DNA from: Ramlibacter sp.
GTDB taxonomy: Bacteria > Pseudomonadota > Gammaproteobacteria > Burkholderiales > Burkholderiaceae_C
Assembly: GCA_028291885.1 (NCBI GenBank)
Contig: JAQGNJ010000079.1
Location: forward strand, 1-37,018
Length of the DNA stretch: 37,018 nt
Direction of reading: 5' to 3'
This document shows, in pieces, positions 2,942-15,315 of this stretch; position 1 is the stretch's first letter, and each line of letters starts with the position of its first letter. A program made the translations under genes and the position numbers. The notes below the pieces were generated by a model. The model worked only from the letters and a program-made list of their open reading frames with translations. It did no database searches and was not told the origin of the DNA.

Positions 2942-3235
2942 ATGAATGCCAAAGCCCTCCTCGCCATCGCCGCTTTCGCCGCCGCCGCTTCCGCCGGTGC
3001 GCGCGCCGACGAAGCCGATGGCTCGCAGTACGCCCTCAAGTTCGAAGGCACCCGCACCCGCGCCGAAGTGATGGCCGAGGCGGCCACCGTGTCCGCGACC
3101 CGCAGCACGGAGCCGGCCGGTTCGCGCGTCGCCGCCCAGCCGCGATCGGGCGTGGATGCGAAGGCAGTGCGGGCCGAAGCGGCGCGCGCGCTCAGGCTGG
3201 GACAGATCCCCTCGGGCGAAAGCGGCCGGATGTGA
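2942..3235 (+). CDS. Small secreted protein, DUF4148-like (97 aa)
   Basis: MNAKALLAIAAFAAAASAGARADEADGSQYALKFEGTRTRAEVMAEAA: signal peptide and RAEVMAEA motif resembling DUF4148. Confidence 0.7.
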   Translation: MNAKALLAIAAFAAAASAGARADEADGSQYALKFEGTRTRAEVMAEAATVSATRSTEPAGSRVAAQPRSGVDAKAVRAEAARALRLGQIPSGESGRM

Positions 3236-3256
3236 GCTCCCGGCTCCAGCAACGGG

Positions 3257-3284
3257 AAAAAGCGCCGCGAGGCGCTTTTTTTTT
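3257..3284. terminator. Bidirectional rho-independent terminator between convergent genes
   Basis: AAAAAGCGCC-gcga-GGCGCTTTTT plus further Ts; lies between the stops at 3235 (+) and 3293 (-). Confidence 0.85.
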
Positions 3285-3292
3285 CGGGTGGA

Positions 3293-4195
3293 TCAGAAGC
3301 CGATGTAGAGCGTATGCGGGTTGGTGGCCGTGCAAACGCCTGTCGTGCAGGTGCCGGACTGTCCCGGCGGCATCGATCCGTCGACCGTATAGCTCTGGGG
3401 CACCGCGCTGCCCGTGCCGCTGGTGGCCGTCAGGGTCAGCGTGTAGTTCAGGCCCAGTGCGGTCCCATTGGCGCTGGCGACCGCGGGAGGAGGGATCGAG
3501 TTGAGCGAGAGCGTGTACGGCGTGTTGTAGGTGCATGTCAGCTGGAACGGGCTCGCCCCGGTCGCCGCCGTCCGCATGAACGAGGTGTAGTTCATCGCCA
3601 GCGTCGCGGGCGGTGTGTTGAAGTAGCAGTTGTGCTGGATGCTCACCGATGCGCCGAAGACCGCGCTTTGCAGGATGGCCCCGGTCGCCGACCGCGCGAT
3701 GTTGCTCAGGCGCACGATGACCGAAATGGCGAGATCGTCGTACACCCCGGCGGGCGCGCCGGTCTGGCCCGAGGGAACGCGCAGATAGTAGGTGTAGGTG
3801 AACGGCTGCGCGTTTGCGTTGTTCGCCATCTGGTAGACGACGCCGCCGTTGGTGCCGCTGCCGTAGTTTGCGCCTGCGCCGGTCGTCCATTGCCCGCCCG
3901 CGACCGAGCCCTGGTAGATGTTGTACGTGAGCGTCTGCGTGCCGTTCTGGCGGGTCATGGCCCGTCCCGCGGGCGGCTCGCCCTGGTCGACCCCGATGTA
4001 GATGTAGGGACGCGCGGGGTCGCCCGCCTGCTTGGTGCATTGCCCGCTGATGGTCCCCGTGTAGTTGGTGTTCGCGCCCGAGACGTAGAGGACCGTCATG
4101 GGCATCGAGGTCGCCGTCACGGTGCAAATGACGGCATGGGCCGAGCCGCAAGCGGCCAGCAGGAAGAAAAGCAGGGTTTTGAGGAGGTGATGCAT
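3293..4195 (-). CDS. Spore coat U (SCPU) domain protein with two tandem domains, CsuE-like putative tip adhesin
   Basis: MHHLLKTLLFFLLAACGSAHAVICTVTATSMPM... first SCPU-like unit, then CYFNTPPATLAMNYTSF...PHTLYIGF; ATGA overlap with the usher stop. Confidence 0.85.
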   Translation of the reverse strand: MHHLLKTLLFFLLAACGSAHAVICTVTATSMPMTVLYVSGANTNYTGTISGQCTKQAGDPARPYIYIGVDQGEPPAGRAMTRQNGTQTLTYNIYQGSVAGGQWTTGAGANYGSGTNGGVVYQMANNANAQPFTYTYYLRVPSGQTGAPAGVYDDLAISVIVRLSNIARSATGAILQSAVFGASVSIQHNCYFNTPPATLAMNYTSFMRTAATGASPFQLTCTYNTPYTLSLNSIPPPAVASANGTALGLNYTLTLTATSGTGSAVPQSYTVDGSMPPGQSGTCTTGVCTATNPHTLYIGF

Positions 4196-6582
4196 CAGCG
4201 ACGTATCCCGGAACATGTCAACGGCCCGACGCGCGCGATCTCGTCCAGGTTGCCCGGGGGCAACTCTACCGCGAGCACGCATGACTGCCCGTTCCATTTC
4301 AGCCGCAGTTCGTTCTTCGCCTGCAGTCCCGTGACAAAAGCCTCGCCACGCCTGGCGACGAAGAATTCCTTGCGATCGGCGAGCAGTTCGAGCTCGGCGC
4401 CTGGCGGCGCCGGCCCGCCGTCGTCCAGGACGATGCGGATCAATGCGCCGCGGCCGCTGCGAACCGGAAACCTGACGATCAGGCCGGTGCGCGCCGGCGG
4501 CACCACCACTTGCTCGATGCTGTCGATCTCGGCGCTGATCGGCAATTCGCTGGGATCGAGCCGCAGGCTGTTGGTCTGGTACGAGAGCAGGCCGGTCACG
4601 AGCGCCTTGCCGTTGGGGCCGGTGCGAGCCGTCAGGCGCCCGTTCGAACCGACGCCGACGTCGGCGTAGCCGGGGACCTCGACGAGCGCAAAGCTGTCCT
4701 GGATCGGCCGCGAGGCGAAGACCTGGCCGTCGATCATCACCAGCCCACCTTGCGCACCGAGCCGGACGGTCTGCTGCTCGGTGGAGGCGCTCACGTCGGC
4801 CGACACCAGGCCCCTGGTCCCCTGGTAGAAGACGCCGCCCTCGGCGAAATTGAGCGCGTTGCGGCGCCCTCCCAGCGCCCGCCAGCCCCAGCCGTTCTCG
4901 GCGGTCAGTCCCTGGCTGACGCTGGTGTAGCCGTCGGTCTGTCCCCTGCGGTGCGAGAAGCTGCTCGCCGACGAAACCTGCCGCTCGAGCGGAACAAGCA
5001 GGCTCACGCCGAAGGAGGTCGCTGCGCCGGCGGGGCCGGAGTCCTTCACGCGGACCACGTTGAAGGTCAGCGAAGCGCGTGCGCCGATCTGCAGCCCGTA
5101 GTTGGCGCTGTAGGTGACCAGCGGGCCGCGGTCGTACGAGTCGACCCGGGCATAGGCGACACCGAGCGAACCGAAGCGCTCCGACGAGAAGTTGTAGCTG
5201 GCGGACAGTTGCCGCCGGGACGGCAAGCTGGCGGCGTCCTGGCCGATCTGGCGGTAGCTGCGCGACGCGCCTTCCGCGCTCAGGGTGAAGCCGTGGCGCA
5301 GGCTCGAATTCTCGACGGCGACCATCCAGTGCTGGCCCTGGCCTGCCTTGTCGTCGCGACTGAAAGCTCCGGACGCGTTGCCCAGCATCTGCCAGGGCAG
5401 GGCGGTCGCGATCCCCAGGCCCGCGCCCCATGTGTCGCGGCTGGCCTCCGCGCGCGCTTGCATCGTCAGGCTTTTGCTCAAGCCCTGGCGCCACAGGCCC
5501 GAGACGAAGCGTTCACTGTAGTCCGCACTGTCGGCGCCGATGTTCTCGTGAACGGCGCCGATCTCGAAGCTCCAGTCGGACAGGCCTTTCTCCAGCAGTT
5601 CCGCGCGGCTGAAAAAGTCCTGGACCAGCGTGGTCTCGCGGCCGAGCGCGTCGCGCACCACCAGCCGCGCCTGGCCGCTGCCTGTCAGCAGCGGAAAGTT
5701 GTCGATGGCGAAGGGCCCGGCGGGCACGCGCGAGGTCTGCCGCAAGGCATCGTTGATATAGAGCTCCACCGTGCTGGGCGCCGTCGACAGGCCGCCGAGG
5801 ATGGGAAGCGGCTGGGTGATGAAGCCGGGCCGCAGGCCGAAATTGCGGCCGATCTGCAGGCCGCCGAAATACAGCGGACGCCCCCAGCTGCCGGTCCGGG
5901 TGGTGCTGTCGCCCACGCGCAGCGTCAGGTTGTGCTCCGGAAAATCGCGGGTGAAAGTGGTCTCCGCCCGCCGCAGGCTGCGGGGCGAATCGGGATCGGT
6001 TCCCGCCAGGTTGCGGCCGATGAAGTTCGATGTCAGCACGCCCCAGCGGCTGGCGAAGCCGGCTTCCGTCAGCGCGCCGAGATCGCGCACTGTCCGTGAC
6101 CCGCGCAGGCTGGTCTGATTGAGGTTCAGGTCGAAGTTGAGAAACAGCGCCGGTTCAGCCTCGCTGACGGGCAGCCTTTCGGCGGACTCCGCGCCCAGGC
6201 GGGTGGCGGCGAACGCGCCCGGTGAAAACACCAGCTCCACGGACTGGTTGGCGTGGTTCATCTGCGCCTTGAAGCCAGGAACCGAGGAAAGCGGATACCA
6301 CTGCTGGCCCAGGTGGGTGACGCCAAGGACGGTCGGTGCGCGATTGAGCCGCCATTCGTCGAATGCCTCCGCGGGCGCATAGAGCGTCCCGCCCCGCTCC
6401 AGCAGCGTCCAGCTCCCCGACCTGGCGCCATTGACCGAAACTTCCAGCGGGAGCATGCGGTCGCGCCGCGACGCCTCCGCGCCCGGGGCACTCTGGGCCT
6501 GGGACTGCGCCAGCACCGCGCCGGATCCCAGGGCCGCAGTCACGATCACGATCAAGGCTGCGCAGCCCGGCAGGTACAACAT
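4195..6582 (-). CDS. Outer membrane fimbrial usher, archaic (CsuD-like) type
   Basis: 795 aa; LEVSVNGARSG, LFLNFDLNLNQTS, ELYINDALRQTSRVPAGPFAIDNFPLLTGSGQARLVVRDALGRET, C-terminal GLIVRFPVRSGRGALIRIVLDDG. Confidence 0.95.
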   Translation of the reverse strand: MLYLPGCAALIVIVTAALGSGAVLAQSQAQSAPGAEASRRDRMLPLEVSVNGARSGSWTLLERGGTLYAPAEAFDEWRLNRAPTVLGVTHLGQQWYPLSSVPGFKAQMNHANQSVELVFSPGAFAATRLGAESAERLPVSEAEPALFLNFDLNLNQTSLRGSRTVRDLGALTEAGFASRWGVLTSNFIGRNLAGTDPDSPRSLRRAETTFTRDFPEHNLTLRVGDSTTRTGSWGRPLYFGGLQIGRNFGLRPGFITQPLPILGGLSTAPSTVELYINDALRQTSRVPAGPFAIDNFPLLTGSGQARLVVRDALGRETTLVQDFFSRAELLEKGLSDWSFEIGAVHENIGADSADYSERFVSGLWRQGLSKSLTMQARAEASRDTWGAGLGIATALPWQMLGNASGAFSRDDKAGQGQHWMVAVENSSLRHGFTLSAEGASRSYRQIGQDAASLPSRRQLSASYNFSSERFGSLGVAYARVDSYDRGPLVTYSANYGLQIGARASLTFNVVRVKDSGPAGAATSFGVSLLVPLERQVSSASSFSHRRGQTDGYTSVSQGLTAENGWGWRALGGRRNALNFAEGGVFYQGTRGLVSADVSASTEQQTVRLGAQGGLVMIDGQVFASRPIQDSFALVEVPGYADVGVGSNGRLTARTGPNGKALVTGLLSYQTNSLRLDPSELPISAEIDSIEQVVVPPARTGLIVRFPVRSGRGALIRIVLDDGGPAPPGAELELLADRKEFFVARRGEAFVTGLQAKNELRLKWNGQSCVLAVELPPGNLDEIARVGPLTCSGIRR

Positions 6583-6607
6583 GGCGTGGTGAGGTGCGGG
6601 TCAATAG

Positions 6608-6630
6608 CGCGCCATGACCCGCATGGCGCG
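6608..6630 (-). other. Intra-operon stem-loop between chaperone and usher genes
   Basis: CGCGCCATG-acccg-CATGGCGCG perfect 9-bp inverted repeat in the chaperone-usher intergenic gap. Confidence 0.5.
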
Positions 6631-6652
6631 ACCCGCTACCAAAAAATCCGGT

Positions 6653-7426
6653 TCAGGGCAGTGTCACGTCAAAGCTTTGCGCTTTGCCATCGTCGAAGCT
6701 GACGGCCAGTTGCACGGCGCCAGCGGGAATTGCCTGTTCGCCCTTGATCTCCATCGCCTTGCGGGCGCCGGGCAGGATGTAGGTTCCGCCTTCGAACACA
6801 CCGAGCACCCGATCGCCGCGCCGAAGCTGGATCTGCCGGACCTGGGCGTAGGCGGTGCCGGAATTGGCGCACGAAGCGCTCAAGGCCTGCCCGGTCACTC
6901 CCACCAGTTGGCAGTTGATTTCACGCTTGGCCACGGGTGGCGTGATGAAGACGGGCATGGAAAGAGCCAGCGCAACCGACACCTGCACGGTCTGGTCCTT
7001 GGGGGTCGTGGCCTCCGGCACCTCACGCATGATCAGGCGGTAGGTCAGTTGCCGGCTGGCGTCCGCCGGCTTGAGCAACGCGAGACGGACCACCTGGCGT
7101 GCCTTGGGGGCCAGCTTGAGGATGGGCGGCGACAGGATCAGGTCTTCGGTCGGCGTCAGCTCGTCGGTGCCGTCCGCCTTCTGCGACCAGTTGTTCAACT
7201 CGGCTTGCAACGCGACCTCGGTGTCGCCTTCGTTGACGATCGTGATGGCGACAGCGCGGTCCCTGGGCTGCATGTAGATCCGGATCGGCGTGACCGAAAA
7301 AGCGGCGGCGCTGGCGGGAAGCGGCAGCGAGGCGAGGCCGATGGCGGCAAGCGTTCCGGCCGTGACCGAAAGCAAGCCCAGCTGGAAACGTTCCTGCGGC
7401 CGATCCAGATGCTTTTTCATTAACAC
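6653..7426 (-). CDS. Periplasmic pilus chaperone, archaic (CsuC-like) type
   Basis: SAAAFSVTPIRIYMQPRDRAVAITIVNEGDTEVALQAELNNWSQ...LILSPPILKLAPKARQVVRLALL; two-domain Ig-like chaperone pattern. Confidence 0.93.
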   Translation of the reverse strand: MLMKKHLDRPQERFQLGLLSVTAGTLAAIGLASLPLPASAAAFSVTPIRIYMQPRDRAVAITIVNEGDTEVALQAELNNWSQKADGTDELTPTEDLILSPPILKLAPKARQVVRLALLKPADASRQLTYRLIMREVPEATTPKDQTVQVSVALALSMPVFITPPVAKREINCQLVGVTGQALSASCANSGTAYAQVRQIQLRRGDRVLGVFEGGTYILPGARKAMEIKGEQAIPAGAVQLAVSFDDGKAQSFDVTLP

Positions 7427-7448
7427 AGCTTACCAGCTCAGCCATTGT

Positions 7449-7832
7449 TTAGAAACTCACCATCATCTCGACGGCACCATCCCCGCCATCGCTGTTGTAA
7501 ACGCGCAATGCCGTGACGGTGCCGGCGCCGAACGGGACCGGCGGGCCGGACAACAGCCTGAGTTTTGCCAGGGGTTCGAAGTGGAAGCGGAAAGCCCCAC
7601 CTTGCGTTCCCGCGAAAGGCTTGTCGGGCGCCGGCGCGATGCTGACGAACTGTCCGCCGCTGCAGGTGACGCTCACCAGCGCGTTGGTCTCCTCGCTCAA
7701 AGCCTGGCTGAGGCAAAGCCCAGAACCATCGAGCCGGATCTGCACCACGAATGCGCCGCTTGCCGTCCCAGCCACCGCCGTTGTCAAGAACCCGAACGCC
7801 AATCCAAAGGCAAGAATCGTCCTGCGGATCAC
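7449..7832 (-). CDS. Small secreted fimbrial subunit-like protein (about 127 aa), GTG start assumed
   Basis: VIRRTILAFGLAFGFLTTAVAGTASGAFVVQIRL signal peptide; two internal Cys; C-terminal beta-strand VEMMVSF; lies between the SCPU pilin and chaperone genes. Confidence 0.65.
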   Translation of the reverse strand: MIRRTILAFGLAFGFLTTAVAGTASGAFVVQIRLDGSGLCLSQALSEETNALVSVTCSGGQFVSIAPAPDKPFAGTQGGAFRFHFEPLAKLRLLSGPPVPFGAGTVTALRVYNSDGGDGAVEMMVSF

Positions 7833-7843
7833 GGACCAGGCGA

Positions 7844-8326
7844 TCAGTAGGTGATGGTGAGGGTGCGCACCTTGTTGGCCGTGCCGGCTGTCACCGTGCC
7901 CGCCTGGCCCGCCGCAGCGTTGCCATGGACGTAGAACGTCGTGCCGGTGGAAGCGGCGGTCTGGTTGGTCAGCGACGCGACCGGACCGACGGCATGGGTT
8001 CCGCTGGTGCTCAGAGCCAGGGTGTAGGCGATGCCGGTCGTGCCGTCCGTGACGGAAGCCGAATCCAGCTCCATCGTTTCGATCACTTCGCCGGTGGTGC
8101 AGCGAACACCGAAGCTCGTGCTTCCCGTCGAGGCCGCGGTCTGGAACGATGTGTAGGCCAGCGCCAGATCGGTGATCACGGCGCCTGTGGCTGCGTTTTC
8201 GGTGTTGATCTCGCATTTCGACGTCAGCGTGATGTTGACGTTGAAGGTACCCGATGCGGTCGCTGCCAGGGCACTGGTGGCGATTGCGGAAAACGCGAGG
8301 ATCACAACAAGGAAGAGCTTCTTCAT
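7844..8326 (-). CDS. SCPU-domain major pilin-like subunit (CsuA/B-like, 160 aa)
   Basis: MKKLFLVVILAFSAIATSALAATASGTFNVNITLTSKCEI...LALAYTSFQTAASTGSTSFGVRCT...YTLALSTSG. Confidence 0.9.
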   Translation of the reverse strand: MKKLFLVVILAFSAIATSALAATASGTFNVNITLTSKCEINTENAATGAVITDLALAYTSFQTAASTGSTSFGVRCTTGEVIETMELDSASVTDGTTGIAYTLALSTSGTHAVGPVASLTNQTAASTGTTFYVHGNAAAGQAGTVTAGTANKVRTLTITY

Positions 8327-8398
8327 AGGACTCCTGGAACAGTTGAAATGGTTAAGGAAAATGCTTAGGCAATTTGCTTAGAGGCCGAACTGTAGTAC

Positions 8399-8504
8399 AC
8401 GGAGTAACAGGGTGCAACCAGAAACTTGTGCAAATAGTCACAAGTAATCAATACGTTTGCCTGGCCTTTGCGGATTTACAACGGCTAGGCTACCTTTTGT
8501 TACC
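8399..8504 (-). promoter_or_regulatory. Candidate regulatory region of the Csu-like operon
   Basis: Contains ACGGAGT (8399-8405), CAACC, ACTTGTG-N8-CACAAGT inverted repeat (8424-8445) and GCTACCTTTTGTTACC (8489-8504); related elements precede the second fibre operon. Confidence 0.45.
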
Positions 8505-8586
8505 TTCGGCGGCTGCCGGGCGGTTGAGGTCTCCGCAAGCCATCCTCATCTCGTGCACGCCGCTACGATTCCTCCTTTTTCCTGCC

Positions 8587-10497
8587 ATGACCCAAAAACA
8601 AACCCTCTCCTTCCAGGCCGAAGTCGCGCAACTGCTGCATCTCGTCACCCATTCGCTCTACTCGAACAAGGAAATCTTCCTGCGCGAGCTGATCTCCAAT
8701 GCCTCGGACGCGTGCGACAAGCTGCGCTTCGAAGCCCTGAACCAGGCCGCTCTTTACGAAGACGCGCCCAATCTCGAAGTCAGGGTGAGCTTCGACAAGG
8801 AAGCGCGGACGCTGACCATCGCGGACAACGGCATCGGCCTGTCGGCGCAGGAGGCGATCGACAACCTCGGCACGATCGCCAAGAGCGGCACGCGCGAATT
8901 CATGGGCCGCCTGTCCGGCGACCAGAAGGCCGACGCCCAGCTGATCGGGCAGTTCGGCGTCGGCTTTTATTCCGGCTTCATCGTGGCCGACAAGATCAGC
9001 GTGGAGTCGCGCCGGGCCGGGCTGCCACCGGAGCAGGGCGTGCGCTGGACCAGTGGCGGCGCCGGCGATTTCGAGGTGGAGGAAGTCACCCGGCCCCAGC
9101 GCGGCACCCGCGTGACGCTGCACCTGCGCGAGGATGCCGGGGAGTACCTGAACACATGGAAGCTCAAGAGCGTCATCTCCAAGTACTCCGACCATATTTC
9201 GCTGCCCATCCTCATGCGCAAGGAGGAATGGAAGGAGGGGGAGGACAACAAGGGCGGCGAGATGGTGCTCGCCGACGAATGGGAAACCGTCAACCAGGCC
9301 AGTGCGCTGTGGAGCCGCGCCAAGAAGGACATCAGCCTCGAGCAGTACCAGGAGTTCTACAAGCAGATCAGCCATGACACCGAGCCGCCGCTGACCTGGT
9401 CGCACAACCGGGTCGAGGGCTCGACCGAATACACCCAGCTGCTGTACATCCCTTCGCACGCGCCGTTCGACCTGTGGAACCGGGACAAGGCCGCGGGCGT
9501 GAAGCTGTACGTCAAGCGCGTGTTCATCATGGACGACGCCGAAGCGCTGTTGCCGGTCTACCTGCGCTTCGTCAAGGGCGTGATCGACTCGGCCGACCTG
9601 CCGCTGAACGTCAGCCGCGAGTTGCTGCAGGAGAGCAGGGACGTGCGGGCGATCCGCGAAGGTTCGACCAAGCGCGTGCTGGCGATGCTGGAGGACCTGG
9701 CGAAGCTCGAGAAGGACGATGCGGCCTCCGGGGAGGACAAGGGCAAGTACGCGATGTTCTATTCCGAATTCGGCCCCGTGCTCAAGGAAGGCCTGGGCGA
9801 GGACTTCGGCAATCACGAGCGGCTCGCCAAGCTCCTGCGCTTTGCCTCGACCGCCTCGGACGCGACCAGCGTCTCGCTGGCCGACTACAAGGCGCGGATG
9901 AAGGAAGGCCAGGACGCGATCTACTACATCACGGCCGACTCGCTGCTCGCCGCCAAGAACAGCCCGCAACTGGAAGTCTTCCGCAAGAAGGGCATCGAGG
10001 TGCTGCTGATGACGGACCGCGTCGACGAGTGGGCGCTGAACTACCTGCAGGACTTCGACGGCACGCCGATGCAGTCGGTCGCCCGCGGTGCGGTCGACCT
10101 GGGCAAGCTCCAGGACGAATCGGAGAAGAAGGCGGCCGAAGAAGCGGCCGAGGCGTTCAAGCCGGTTCTCGAAAAACTCAAGCAGGCGCTCAAGGACAAG
10201 GCCGAAGACGTGCGCGTGACCACGCGGCTGGTGGATTCGCCCGCCTGCCTGGTCGTGCAGGACGCGGGAATGAGCATGCAGCTGGCGAGGATGCTCAAGC
10301 AGGCCGGGCAGAAGGTGCCGCAGGTCAAGCCGGTGCTCGAGGTGAATGCCGACCACGCGCTGGTGAAGAAGCTGGAAGGCTCCGACCGCTTCGACGATCT
10401 GGCCCACATCCTGTTCGACCAGGCGCTGCTGGCCGAGGGCGGCCTGCCCGAAGATCCGGCGGCCTACGTGCGCCGCGTCAACTCGCTGCTGGCGTAA
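8587..10497 (+). CDS. htpG: Molecular chaperone HtpG (Hsp90)
   Basis: [86 protein letters not shown]. Confidence 0.98.
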
Positions 10498-10500
10498 GGA

Positions 10501-12507
10501 TCAGCGATCACGCTGCAGCGCGAAGTCGGTCGTGGTGGTGGAGCGGACCAGCACATGCGCGGCCACCGCGTCGCGCTGGACCGGATTCCACGGCAAGGGA
10601 ACGTTGTCGGGCTGGAGCTGGACCCGATGCTCACCGGCGACGACCCAGGGGAATTCGTAGCGGCCCTGGGCGTCCGTCCGGGTGACGTAGCGACCGTCCA
10701 GGACCATGGTGACATTGGGAACCCCGGCTTCGGACGCCTCGCGGCGGCCGTTGTTGTCGGCGTCGAGATAGACCACGCCCGCGATGCCGCCGGCGCCCAT
10801 CCCTGGAGCACCGCCTAGCGGTGCAACCGACGAGCCCGCCCGGTCTTCATAACGCAGGGTGAGCTGGAATCGCCGCGCCGAGATCACCGGCGTCACCGAC
10901 GTGGCGGCCTGCGTCAGGGTGGAAATCAGCGCGAACGCCTCCGGATCTTCTCCCCTGACGCTGGTGAACTGGGCCAGCACACTCCAGCGCGGGTCGATAG
11001 CCCAGGCCACGCCGAGCGTGCCGCTGATCTGGCGCGCGCCGCCGCCCTGCGAGCCGCGCAGGTTGGCGTCGACCGAGACCCTCGACCATGGGCGGGTGCT
11101 GCCGATCACGCCCCAGCTGAAGGCCCGCGTGTCGCGCTCCGGCAGGTGGACCCGCTCGAGCGCCGCCGAGAGCGACAGCGCGCTGTCGGCCGCCAGCAGG
11201 AAGCTGTGGTCGATGCCCAGCCGCATCGAGCGACGCGTGCCGGCACGCAGCACGTCGGCCAGCCACTGCGTCTGGCCGAGATCGGACGCATGTTCCCATC
11301 CGAGCTGGGCCGATACGCCGTTGGCGCCGGCCTGACGCACCGACAGCGCCGCCAGCGCGGTGTTGCGCGTGTCCATGCGGTAGCGGCCGGACACGTTGCC
11401 GAACACGCTGGGGCCGCTCGTGCCGCTCACGCTGTCGGTCCATTCCGTCGAGGTGGTGAGCTGCCAGCGCCGGGTGGACACGTCGCCGCGCCAATAGATG
11501 CCGCGGATGTCCGAAATCGCGCCGTAAGTGCCCCAGCGCAGGTTCGGCTCCAGCTGGAACACTCCAGCCGCCTGCCTCAGCCACTGGCTGCGCCACTGCG
11601 CGTCCACCCAGACGCCCTTGCCGCTCTCGTGACCCAAGCCCGCGGCGGCCGGGTCGCGCGTTGCGCTGCTCGTCATCGCGTTCACCTGCAGCTGCAGCCC
11701 ACCCTCGCGCTGCCAGACAGGCAGGCCGCCCGCGGCAACCTGATCGGCCCAGGGCGCCACGCCTTCCCAGCGCCATGCGGACCACAGCCCGCGAACGCCC
11801 TGGTCGGCAGCCGGGTTGCTGCTGTCGGCGATCCCGCTGGCATCGAACAACTGGAACGCGAGGGAGGAACTCGACGCCGGCCCCGGCAAGGCTTGCTGGC
11901 CGCCGGCAAAGGCGAGCCGGCCCCGGCCAGGGTTGAAGCCGTTGACGCCCAGGCCGGAATAGAGGCCGGGGCGGCCCAGGGAGGCGTTGAGCGTCGTCTG
12001 TTCGCCGAGCAGGTATTCCGCCGTGACTCCCTCGAGCGGCGACGAAGGCAGTGCAATGCGGCCGAAACCGCGGGCCATCGGGACTTGCAGGCTGACCAGG
12101 GCGCCCACGCTGTGGTTGGCCATCCAGCCGCCGTCCAGCGGAAAGGCGCGCTGGTCGAAGCGCCACAGGGGCGCTGCGTCGTCGCCTCCCTGCCGCGACG
12201 CTGCGTCCTGCTGTTCGGTGCGGCTGACGGCTGCGCTCAGCGAAAGCGCGCCATAGCCGGGTGTGTCGAGGAAGCCGGAAAAGGAGATGCCTTTCGAGGT
12301 GCTGCGTTGCAAACCGCTGTCCCTGGCCAGGTCGTATTCCACCCGCCAGCCGCGGGGCCAGCCGCTGCTGCGGGGGAGTTCGAGCGTCATCGCCAGCGAT
12401 GGCTGGTTTCCTTCCTCCAGGACTTTGTCGACGTAGGGCTCGGCCGCGGCCGGCAGGGCGAGCGCCAGGAGAGAAGCGCCCAGCCCTTTCCGGACGCTGG
12501 GGCTCAT
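10501..12507 (-). CDS. Atypical usher-like outer membrane protein with C-terminal SdrD-B/carboxypeptidase-regulatory-like domain (668 aa)
   Basis: Signal peptide, alternating beta-rich sequence, C-terminal GIAGVVYLDADNNGRREASEAGVPNVTMVLDGRYVTRTDAQGRYEFPWVVAGEHRVQLQ; ATGA overlap with the chaperone gene. Confidence 0.7.
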   Translation of the reverse strand: MSPSVRKGLGASLLALALPAAAEPYVDKVLEEGNQPSLAMTLELPRSSGWPRGWRVEYDLARDSGLQRSTSKGISFSGFLDTPGYGALSLSAAVSRTEQQDAASRQGGDDAAPLWRFDQRAFPLDGGWMANHSVGALVSLQVPMARGFGRIALPSSPLEGVTAEYLLGEQTTLNASLGRPGLYSGLGVNGFNPGRGRLAFAGGQQALPGPASSSSLAFQLFDASGIADSSNPAADQGVRGLWSAWRWEGVAPWADQVAAGGLPVWQREGGLQLQVNAMTSSATRDPAAAGLGHESGKGVWVDAQWRSQWLRQAAGVFQLEPNLRWGTYGAISDIRGIYWRGDVSTRRWQLTTSTEWTDSVSGTSGPSVFGNVSGRYRMDTRNTALAALSVRQAGANGVSAQLGWEHASDLGQTQWLADVLRAGTRRSMRLGIDHSFLLAADSALSLSAALERVHLPERDTRAFSWGVIGSTRPWSRVSVDANLRGSQGGGARQISGTLGVAWAIDPRWSVLAQFTSVRGEDPEAFALISTLTQAATSVTPVISARRFQLTLRYEDRAGSSVAPLGGAPGMGAGGIAGVVYLDADNNGRREASEAGVPNVTMVLDGRYVTRTDAQGRYEFPWVVAGEHRVQLQPDNVPLPWNPVQRDAVAAHVLVRSTTTTDFALQRDR

Positions 12508-13310
12508 TTGCTGAAGCGGCGGTCCAGCTCCGTGCTGCGCCCTTTGCCCCATTCGAGTTTGCCCTTGACCGTGATCGGGAACGCGGCCTGGACCACGGTG
12601 TTCGGGTCGCCCTGCCGGGTCAGCTTCAGGGCGATGCTGCGTGTTTCGCCCGGCAGGATCGGCGTGTTCGCCGCGCTGACGTCGAGCGGCTGGCCCTGGG
12701 CGTCGGTGCCGGTCAGGAAGCCGTCGAGGCGGCCGTGGGCGGTTCCGGAATTGCGGACATCGATCACCGCGACGGGCGAGCCGTTGCGCACTTCCACCCG
12801 CCCGTCCTGCACGCTCAGTTCGGGCGCCACGTCGCCGACGCGGACGTAAACGATCACGCCGACCCGGGCGCCCAAGGGCACGGATTGCGTTGCGCCGGCA
12901 AAGCTGGACTCCTTGCCCTCCAGCATGATCGCGAACCTGCATTCGACCGGCGCCTGGCCCGCCGGCGGCGCGACTTCGAATCGAAAGCGATAGGGCTGGC
13001 GCGGGGGAACCGTCAGTTCCCGGCGCTCGATCGCCACCCAGGGCCTGCAGCTTCCAGCGCGCAGCTCGTCCTCCAGAACCACCGTGTCGTCGCTGCGGAA
13101 GGTCCAGTCGGCGGTGCGGATCAGCAGTGTGCCCGGTGTTGTCGACGCGTTGGTGATCTCGATGGTCTGGCGCACCCGCTCGCCGGGTTTTGCCGTCAGC
13201 TCGAAGCGGGGCGGGGAGATGGCGAAGGAGAAGTCCGCATGGACGCAGGTCGCGGCGCAGGCAAGCGCGGCGATCGAAACGGCCTGGCCGACGGACAACG
13301 GGAGATTCAT
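12504..13310 (-). CDS. PapD-like periplasmic chaperone (about 268 aa)
   Basis: DFSFAISPPRFELTAKPGERVRQTIEITNASTTPGTLLIRTADWTF...; Ig-like chaperone pattern; ATG at 13310, alternative TTG at 13316. Confidence 0.7.
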   Translation of the reverse strand: MNLPLSVGQAVSIAALACAATCVHADFSFAISPPRFELTAKPGERVRQTIEITNASTTPGTLLIRTADWTFRSDDTVVLEDELRAGSCRPWVAIERRELTVPPRQPYRFRFEVAPPAGQAPVECRFAIMLEGKESSFAGATQSVPLGARVGVIVYVRVGDVAPELSVQDGRVEVRNGSPVAVIDVRNSGTAHGRLDGFLTGTDAQGQPLDVSAANTPILPGETRSIALKLTRQGDPNTVVQAAFPITVKGKLEWGKGRSTELDRRFSK

Positions 13311-13312
13311 GC

Positions 13313-13795
13313 TCAAGGCGAAACCTCGATCTCGAAATAGAAATTCAACGTCTGCATCTGCGTCAGCCGCTCACCGTCGGTCTCCAGCGTCAGCAACAGC
13401 GATTCGACCAGCGTCGCGGGCGACGCCGGTCCCTGGTAAACCAAGGCGCGCTCGCCGCTGTAGAGGGTGCCCGGCAGCAGCCTGCCCTGGGTGGTCCAGC
13501 GGGCACGGACCCGCTCGCCGGTGACCGGTGCGAGCACCATGTAAATGCGCGACGACTGGTTGATCCAGGGCGCCAGGTTCAGCCTGACATCGACGCGCAG
13601 TGTCGCTTCGACGGTGTTCTCGCGCACGCGTCCCGGCGCCACGTTGCGCCACTTCATGTTGACCACGGGTTCGCTGACCACGGTTCCGGTCTCGTCGATG
13701 CGGGACGACGTCGCCTGCGCCGCCGTGGCCAAGCCCCACAGGACAGCGCAAACGAGCGCCGCGCGAAACCGGGTGGTCTGCTTGCCGGGCGCCAT
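13313..13795 (-). CDS. Secreted protein of the second fibre operon (160 aa), possible minor subunit
   Basis: Signal peptide (FRAALVCAVLWGLATAAQA), beta-rich mature part ending LNFYFEIEVSP; 2-bp gap to the upstream gene's stop (13798). Confidence 0.6.
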   Translation of the reverse strand: MAPGKQTTRFRAALVCAVLWGLATAAQATSSRIDETGTVVSEPVVNMKWRNVAPGRVRENTVEATLRVDVRLNLAPWINQSSRIYMVLAPVTGERVRARWTTQGRLLPGTLYSGERALVYQGPASPATLVESLLLTLETDGERLTQMQTLNFYFEIEVSP

Positions 13796-13797
13796 CG

Positions 13798-14436
13798 TCA
13801 CGGCGCCGTCAGTGTGTAGGTTGCCCGGCCGTTGAAGGTGCCGGCGGCGTAACCCCTGGCATTGCTGAAGCTGAATGTCAGGCAGCTCTCGAACCAGCGG
13901 TTTGCCGGGATGCTGAGCAGCGGCTGGGCGGGCACTCCGGCAAACTGGCCGGCGGGAATGGTGGCAGTGGTGTCGCCATTGCCGCCGCTCGCCCACGTGA
14001 TGGCGGAAAAGGGGATCTGGTCCGCCGCCGCATTCAGCAGGTTGGCCGGGGTCGTGACGGTCAGCGACGCGGTGCCGGTCGAGCCCGGGATCCGATAGAA
14101 GCCACCGACATAGACCTGGCCAGGGGGTGAGCAGAAGGCATAGCCGTCGTAAGGGCTGTTTGCAACGGTGCTGTTGCTGGTCATCGGCAGGCTTCCGGTG
14201 CCCAGGGCCGCGGCCGGAACTGTCACGCTGACGCTGTTGATCGTGGCGTTGTCGCTGGGCGTGCCCCCGTTGGTGAAGCTACCGCGGCTCATGGTGCCGG
14301 CCCCGACCTGGAGATAGATCGTACGGTTTCCCGGAGTGATGGCGACCAGGTAGGCATTCGCCGCCGGCAGCCACGAGACCCAGGCGGCCAACAGCCAGGC
14401 CAGCTGTCTCAGCTTCGGGAAAGGGGCTGTGTTCAA
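13798..14436 (-). CDS. Secreted structural subunit paralogue of the 14511-15143 product (212 aa)
   Basis: Shares [IF]xLQVG[AT]GT, SVTVPAA[AS]LG, PFSxI / PWSEI and C-terminal YAAG-[TS]-[FY]...RxxYTxTxP with the upstream protein. Confidence 0.7.
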   Translation of the reverse strand: MNTAPFPKLRQLAWLLAAWVSWLPAANAYLVAITPGNRTIYLQVGAGTMSRGSFTNGGTPSDNATINSVSVTVPAAALGTGSLPMTSNSTVANSPYDGYAFCSPPGQVYVGGFYRIPGSTGTASLTVTTPANLLNAAADQIPFSAITWASGGNGDTTATIPAGQFAGVPAQPLLSIPANRWFESCLTFSFSNARGYAAGTFNGRATYTLTAP

Positions 14437-14476
14437 CGCGACGTCCTGCCAGTGACGATGAGCTTACCCGACAATG

Positions 14477-14506
14477 GGGACAGCCAGAAGCTGTCTTCTC
14501 TGTCCC
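14477..14506 (-). other. Intra-operon stem-loop just downstream of the first subunit gene
   Basis: GGGACAG-cc-AGAAG-ctgt-CTTCT-CTGTCCC: 12 paired positions with a 2-nt bulge, 4 nt past the 14511 stop. Confidence 0.65.
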
Positions 14507-14510
14507 TGGC

Positions 14511-15143
14511 TCAGGGCATCGTCGCGGTGTAAACGAGGCGGCCGTTCGTGCCGCCCGTCGCGCCGTAGCTTCCGGCAGCGTAGGCCACGGTGTTGTCGTA
14601 CTTGAAGGTCCAGATGCCTTCCTCGCGAACGACCTTGTTGGTGGCCGTGATCGTCGTTGCGGCGCCGACGCCGGCTGCTGTCGGGATGGCCGGGTGCGCG
14701 ATCACGGCCGCCGTATAGCCGGAGGTAGCAACAGTCGGGGCGGTCGGCGTCACGAGGATCTCCGACCAGGGGATGGTGTCGGTGCCGCTGGTCAGCGCGC
14801 CCGGGCTGGTTGCCGTCAGGCCGATGTTGCCGTTGTTGCCGAACACACGCACGCGGACTGCGCCGGCCGTCAGGTCACCGCCGGTGCCGGCGATGTCGGT
14901 GCCGTCACCCAGGCTGGCGGCCGGAACGGTGAAGGTCAGGCTGTCGATCGTGCCGAGGTCGGTCAGGTTGGTGCCGGTGCCGACCTGCAGGAACAGGACG
15001 CGCGGGATGACGACGGTAAAGTCGAGGCGGGCCGTCGCCGTGGAGTTCGGGCCGGCGGCCGTGTTCACGTCGGATTCGGCCAGAGCGGTCAGGGGTGTCG
15101 CCAGAACTGCGACGACGGCTGCAACCAGGGAGAGCTTTTTCAT
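14511..15143 (-). CDS. Secreted structural subunit, putative major fibre subunit (210 aa)
   Basis: MKKLSLVAAVVAVLATPLTALAESDVNTAAG signal peptide; promoter-proximal; C-terminal YAAGSYGATGGTNGRLVYTATMP. Confidence 0.75.
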   Translation of the reverse strand: MKKLSLVAAVVAVLATPLTALAESDVNTAAGPNSTATARLDFTVVIPRVLFLQVGTGTNLTDLGTIDSLTFTVPAASLGDGTDIAGTGGDLTAGAVRVRVFGNNGNIGLTATSPGALTSGTDTIPWSEILVTPTAPTVATSGYTAAVIAHPAIPTAAGVGAATTITATNKVVREEGIWTFKYDNTVAYAAGSYGATGGTNGRLVYTATMP

Positions 15144-15183: not shown

Positions 15184-15315
15184 ACGGAGTTGAATGTAAC
15201 CACTTGTGCTGCTTGTTTCAAGTTGTTTCAAGCGCGGAACGTTAGGAATCAGGCACTTGCAAGCTAAAACTCAAACCAGCGTGCAAAACTTCACGAGTTG
15301 GTAACGAAAAGTTAC
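15184..15315 (-). promoter_or_regulatory. Candidate regulatory region of the second fibre operon
   Basis: ACGGAGT (15184-15190), TGTAACCACTTGTG (15195-15208), tandem TTGTTTCAAG x2 (15213-15232), GTAAC-gaaaa-GTTAC (15301-15315). Confidence 0.45.

Follow-up and report, generated by a model that had tools for sequence, protein, structure and literature searches.

What do five closely packed genes build when standard models recognise none of them as part of a pilus? The question is raised by a minus-strand cluster at positions 10501-15143 of a Ramlibacter sp. contig (JAQGNJ010000079.1), of which a stretch of 37,018 nucleotides is here called the window. The genes are transcribed in the order subunit 1, subunit 2, p160, chaperone and barrel, and we refer to them together as the cassette. 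Searches of the five proteins against Pfam and NCBIfam gave no usher, chaperone or pilin model match, and the sole notable hit was an SdrD_B/CarboxypepD_reg-like domain at the C-terminus of the barrel; as a control, a Pfam scan of the same window recovered a Csu-type usher (PF00577, 3e-36) and its chaperone (PF00345, 3e-19). We interpret the cassette, from profile comparisons and predicted structures, as most probably a chaperone-usher pilus system that is divergent and whose usher is reduced.

A first-pass annotation of this DNA had read the genes as an operon for fibre assembly, in which a chaperone related to PapD and a protein resembling an usher depart from the canonical layout, and this proposal is supported by both profiles and structure search. 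Its description of the locus can be read directly from the sequence: five minus-strand open reading frames (ORFs) of the sizes given, a 4-base-pair ATGA overlap between chaperone and barrel genes (12504-12507), and 2-base-pair gaps at 13310/13313 and 13795/13798. The mechanical ORF of the barrel gene encodes 813 residues; a start at 12507 fits better, as it overlaps the chaperone stop, opens with a signal peptide and agrees more closely with the homologues.

The evidence for an usher comes from both fold and sequence. An AlphaFold model of the barrel built with 28 homologues (predicted local distance difference test score, pLDDT, 83.5) has approximately 26 strands over mature residues 30-535, followed by one C-terminal domain. 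When the whole model was searched against the PDB with Foldseek, a search set beforehand as a possible refutation of the fibre-assembly proposal, the protein fell in no unrelated family: FimD and PapC ushers took all of ranks 1-15 (E 3e-13 to 5.6e-8), and TonB-dependent receptors came after them. Profile comparison of 40 barrels gave the same preference, with E 9.5e-10 against an usher alignment of some 29 sequences, 1.1e-3 against TonB receptors, 0.025 against LptD and 0.21 against reversed ushers. The SdrD-B-like C-terminus noticed in the first-pass annotation is present in all 21 members of barrel alignment A1. It should not be read as a foreign ending put in place of usher parts, since the domain occupies the place of the first usher C-terminal domain (CTD1) and aligns with it in profile comparison (E 3.9e-8). 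It is therefore best seen, on this profile evidence, as a probable CTD1 equivalent.

Usher-mediated assembly is understood as a relay in which an N-terminal domain hands over to two C-terminal domains by way of a pore with a plug, and three of these parts are missing from the barrel. No usher N-terminal domain was found by profile in a protein whose mature model has just 29 residues ahead of the first strand, compared with the approximately 125 residues of the FimD N-terminal domain. Likewise, no plug was found by profile, and the model has no insert between strands. A distant usher used as control, itself part of the usher alignment, matched both (3.4e-6 for the N-terminal domain, 7.8e-5 for the plug). 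The second C-terminal domain (CTD2; PapC_C, PF13953) had no match in the barrel proteins, which stop after the CTD1-like domain, and was matched in the Csu usher of the window; the PF00577 usher model matched none of the 21 barrels of alignment A1. The 24-strand barrel with a plug that had been expected at the outset was thus not what AlphaFold predicted. Searches of PDB sequences yielded only SdrD domains or chance matches with the barrel, subunit and p160 profiles, and nothing except SdrD-type domains when phmmer was run with the chaperone and the barrel.

Ahead of the first strand, the barrel retains a short tail, EPYVDKVLEEGNQP, in which the Tyr and Asp of a Y-x-D motif are invariant in 40 of 40 homologues. 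In classical ushers, about 60% of the surface with which the N-terminal domain binds the chaperone comes from the N-terminal tail (PMC9452303), and this analogy suggests that the Y-x-D tail may serve as a chaperone docking site.

By profile comparison, the chaperone is a member of the PapD superfamily and is nearest to the archaic (Csu) type, even though Pfam PapD_N did not match it. Profile A7, made from 26 chaperones with no Csu member among them, was searched against the ORFs of 25 loci, and its only significant non-member matches were Csu-type or related chaperones (5.5e-11, 1.4e-5, 3.3e-4 and 1.6e-3). An iterated profile drew in Csu chaperones, and the Csu link is therefore taken from the uniterated A7 search only. 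In direct comparison, the cassette chaperone aligned with the Csu chaperone of the window (P0006) over 194 columns spanning both domains (E 6.6e-5), and with a bridging chaperone from locus L145 (P0010), itself a sub-threshold PapD_N match, over 223 columns (E 1.6e-15). The best PDB sequence match of the chaperone profile, a WxL-interacting protein at 7e-4, was taken as generic immunoglobulin-like similarity.

The two subunits are true paralogues, as had been claimed, for an iterated profile of either one retrieves the other at 1e-37 to 1e-42; neither has a pilin match in Pfam or NCBIfam, in keeping with the accompanying remark that they are not recognisable SCPU or FimA proteins. An AlphaFold model of subunit 1 (66 homologues; pLDDT 92.4) retrieved FimG, CS20 and PapG chaperone-usher pilin domains at PDB ranks 1-7 (E 0.017-0.08). 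Each subunit carries a signal peptide in its sequence, and these small beta proteins finish with their last strand: 93 of 93 stop 3-4 residues past a terminal aromatic-strand motif. What distinguishes them is the N-terminus. With cleavage sites estimated by a simple script and not by a dedicated predictor, 16-26 residues separate cleavage from the conserved strand-A Gly in a single subunit of each locus, as opposed to 29-42 in its other subunits; here the count is 16 in subunit 2 and 32 in subunit 1. An alternating hydrophobic segment, TATARLDFTVVI in subunit 1, is conserved across the long-N-terminus class, and the subunit 1 model has no strand in residues 1-27. Every measurable locus has a single short-N-terminus subunit, encoded immediately before p160, or before the chaperone if there is no p160; the positional exception is L035, in which the subunit genes are at the other end of the cluster. 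Because a donor-strand fibre requires one unextended tip subunit and at least one extended subunit, this pattern is a stronger argument than the fold ranking, and we infer that the short-N-terminus subunit is the tip. All subunits found are of single-domain size (about 170-250 residues where the start is clear), and none resembles the two-domain tip adhesin CsuE. L035 also encodes a truncated extra subunit homologue of 157 residues between its barrel and subunit genes, on the opposite strand (5975-6448, plus strand).

Of the untruncated cassettes, only L138 and L142 lack the third secreted protein, p160 (alignments A3/A8), and their lack of it indicates that p160 is dispensable or replaceable. 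In these two p160-less cassettes (L138:4743-10555 and L142:866-6202), the short-N-terminus subunit is directly upstream of the chaperone. We also considered whether p160 might be an N-terminal domain or plug that had separated from an usher, or a diverged subunit; its profile matched none of these.

A neighbourhood conservation survey, suggested with the first-pass annotation, bears out the cassette as a unit. The same set recurs in 40 loci from Burkholderiales (including Comamonadaceae) and other Gammaproteobacteria, and each of the 40 barrels, full or cut by a contig end, adjoins a chaperone; this holds for barrels in last place, in first place and on the opposite strand alike. The two loci that have the chaperone but no barrel both stop at a contig edge. 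Some loci keep the gene order of the window, with subunits, p160, chaperone and barrel in turn; others place the barrel first, usually with an extra subunit after the chaperone (for example L036-L042), have the subunits last (L035), or encode the barrel in the opposite direction (L107-L109, L132-L137, L139 and L141). The five-gene arrangement is not due to chance, as it is found in 40 loci with order and strand reshuffled, and the linkage kept despite this reshuffling argues that the parts work together. Within a sample of genomes from the family, the chaperone was matched in 21 of 301, with 18 strong matches. Among 399 evenly sampled Pseudomonadota genomes, full-length barrels are confined to the family of the window, and the other hits cover the C-terminal domain only, a distribution that marks the system as sporadic. 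A plasmid search found nothing. One genome (G1103) holds two copies, L132 and L135. At L144:8614-10335, a related chaperone lies beside a single secreted protein of 269 residues, and no usher-like gene was seen nearby.

These observations can be assembled into a mechanism in which the chaperone would cap each subunit by donor-strand complementation and take it to the barrel, where the invariant Y-x-D tail would stand in for a globular N-terminal domain as the docking site. Having no extension, subunit 2 would go in first and form the tip, and subunit 1 would be added repeatedly by donor-strand exchange. The growing fibre would exit by way of the barrel, and the CTD1-like domain would handle it. 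Absent from two loci, p160 would be an accessory, perhaps a terminator, an anchor or a second tip protein.

Compared with the archaic (Csu-type, sigma) pili, namely CsuC/CsuD/CsuA-B of Acinetobacter baumannii and CupE of Pseudomonas aeruginosa, the cassette shares a PapD-superfamily chaperone of detectable profile similarity, a barrel encoded beside chaperone and subunits, and a donor-strand-like N-terminal extension on most subunits. It differs in that its usher has no N-terminal domain, plug or CTD2, there is no CsuE-type tip adhesin, p160 is additional, and the chaperone has SCRPW and ECRF signatures with invariant Cys and no clear conservation at the position of CsuC Arg89. The FimD and PapC ushers of the classical type 1 and P pili are the best solved-structure matches and share the succession of a barrel and a CTD1-like domain, but they have 24 strands compared with about 26 predicted here, and they possess the three parts that are missing from the cassette barrel. 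Staphylococcal SdrD/UafA B-type domains (PF17210) share only a stretch of approximately 60 residues with the C-terminus of the barrel, the rest of which is an outer-membrane barrel. Three bridging loci, L145, L146 and L045, combine A7-related chaperones with usher-like or large ORFs that end in CarboxypepD_reg and have no PF00577 match, a hint that there may be further usher types overlooked by standard models. L145 differs from the cassette in that its usher-like protein, at 833 residues, has room for an N-terminal domain and its chaperone has no SCRPW Cys.

Several points weigh against a chaperone-usher pilus. Without its C-terminal domain, the barrel does not discriminate between TonB receptors (9.8e-4) and ushers (1.9e-3), so that the sequence link to ushers rests mainly on the CTD1-like domain, and this domain is from a widespread superfamily, SdrD_B/CarboxypepD_reg, that is common in unrelated proteins. 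The Foldseek template modelling (TM) scores of the barrel against ushers are modest (0.24-0.40, query-normalised), so that the search speaks through its ranking of hits and does not amount to an overlay; for the subunits, the E-values are weak, the best being 0.017. In the chaperone, a conserved Arg (Arg110; 34 of 38) aligns two residues off CsuC Arg89, the published carboxylate anchor of non-classical chaperones (PMC4654587); given this offset, we do not claim that the two are equivalent. The role of p160 is unexplained by the chaperone-usher model. We know of no characterised fibre whose usher is without both N-terminal domain and plug, and export and polymerisation into a surface fibre are predictions drawn from genes and models. 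The barrel findings in particular would suit a pore of another type, resembling a TonB receptor, LptD or a porin and bearing a generic SdrD_B domain, with chaperone and subunits forming a periplasmic or secreted matrix system that makes no donor-strand fibre. We consider this distinctly unlikely because the whole-model search places ushers first by several orders of magnitude, the full-length profile comparison favours them as well, and a PapD-like chaperone accompanied by one short and at least one extended subunit is the arrangement expected of a pilus.

Alternatively, the cassette may be an ordinary archaic (Csu/SCPU) pilus whose sequences have drifted beyond profile cut-offs. The affinity of its chaperone to Csu chaperones fits this idea, as does the existence of bridging loci such as L145, where a C-terminally related usher-like protein accompanies an intermediate chaperone. 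Yet drift does not describe the absence of N-terminal domain, plug and CTD2, which alters the architecture: the residues before the first strand are few, no domain is inserted, and neither the N-terminal domain nor the plug was matched although the distant usher control matched both. The lack of a CsuE-like two-domain subunit, the extra p160 and the chaperone's own invariant Cys pair also speak against drift, and we regard this explanation as unlikely. The idea of an incomplete or decayed cassette that borrows the Csu-type usher of the same genome takes its appeal from the window itself, where a Csu-type operon (3192-8326, minus strand) lies just beyond the htpG-like gene. However, even at E 1e-3 no PF00577 usher is found in 27 of 35 cassette genomes, and therefore the cassette does not borrow one; at that threshold PF00577 also matched at none of the barrel coordinates in the 35 genomes, where canonical ushers were found as control. 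The barrels are also full-length open frames, or are cut by contig ends only, and borrowing is highly improbable.

With a divergent chaperone-usher pilus as the favoured interpretation, its place among known systems can be considered. By the usual criteria the cassette is not a member of any named chaperone-usher clade, because it shows no PF00577 match and no N-terminal domain, plug or CTD2 when these are looked for, and the five genes matched none of the named pilus classes. It is an even call whether it constitutes a separate chaperone-usher class, defined by an usher with no N-terminal docking domain, plug or CTD2, by docking through the Y-x-D tail, and by a pore whose gate is the single C-terminal domain, p160 or a bound tip complex. 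We found no description of such a system in the open-licence literature, and one may exist elsewhere.

The features on which this account draws are collected in Table 1. The Ramlibacter sp. window holds two distinct pilus systems on either side of one housekeeping gene, the htpG-like gene. Between the genes for subunits 1 and 2, an inverted repeat (14440-14515) folds slightly more stably than shuffled sequences, and the significance of this intergenic RNA structure is not clear from the comparison (z -1.4).

Table 1. Features of the cassette, its neighbours and the bridging loci; positions are those of the window unless a locus is named.
Feature	Position	Strand	Remarks
Subunit 1	14511..15143	-	210 residues, ATG start; signal peptide and donor-strand-like N-terminal extension; candidate main fibre subunit
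Subunit 2	13798..14436	-	212 residues, TTG start; paralogue of subunit 1 without N-terminal extension; candidate tip subunit
p160	13313..13795	-	160 residues; secreted beta-rich protein, fold unassigned; conserved accessory component
Chaperone	12504..13310	-	268 residues; PapD superfamily, predicted periplasmic
Barrel	10501..12507	-	668 residues; putative reduced usher-like outer-membrane barrel: signal peptide, short N-terminal tail, about 26 strands, one C-terminal domain
Promoter-like site 5' of subunit 1	15193..15221	-	TTGAAA-17-TACATT; consensus match only
Donor-strand-like segment of subunit 1, TATARLDFTVVI	15006..15041	-	Alternating hydrophobic residues; upstream of strand A
Chaperone Cys73	13047..13049	-	SCRPW signature; invariant 38/38; candidate disulphide partner of Cys109
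Chaperone Cys109	12939..12941	-	ECRF signature; invariant in 38/38 aligned sequences
N-terminal tail of mature barrel protein, EPYVDKVLEEGNQP	12400..12441	-	Invariant Y-x-D; low confidence and strandless in model
C-terminal SdrD_B/CarboxypepD_reg-like domain of barrel	10504..10797	-	Usher CTD1 position; Pfam SdrD_B (PF17210) 1.4e-7
htpG-like gene	8374-10497	+	Between Csu-type operon and cassette
SCPU-like subunit	7844-8326	-	Part of Csu-type operon
Csu-type chaperone	6653-7426	-	PapD_N (PF00345)
Csu-type usher	4195-6582	-	PF00577
Bridging loci	L145:8116-12299, L146:5989-10695, L045:5982-10842		Intermediate chaperones and large CarboxypepD_reg proteins

Our interpretation bears on how chaperone-usher pili are counted and understood. 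A pilus survey that relies on the Pfam usher model overlooks the cassette, and would score 27 of the 35 carrier genomes as having no chaperone-usher pilus. A naturally occurring system that retains chaperone, pilin logic and large barrel but dispenses with three usher parts would reveal which parts of the machinery are essential, and such a reduced system would offer a minimal platform on which to test chaperone docking and gating.

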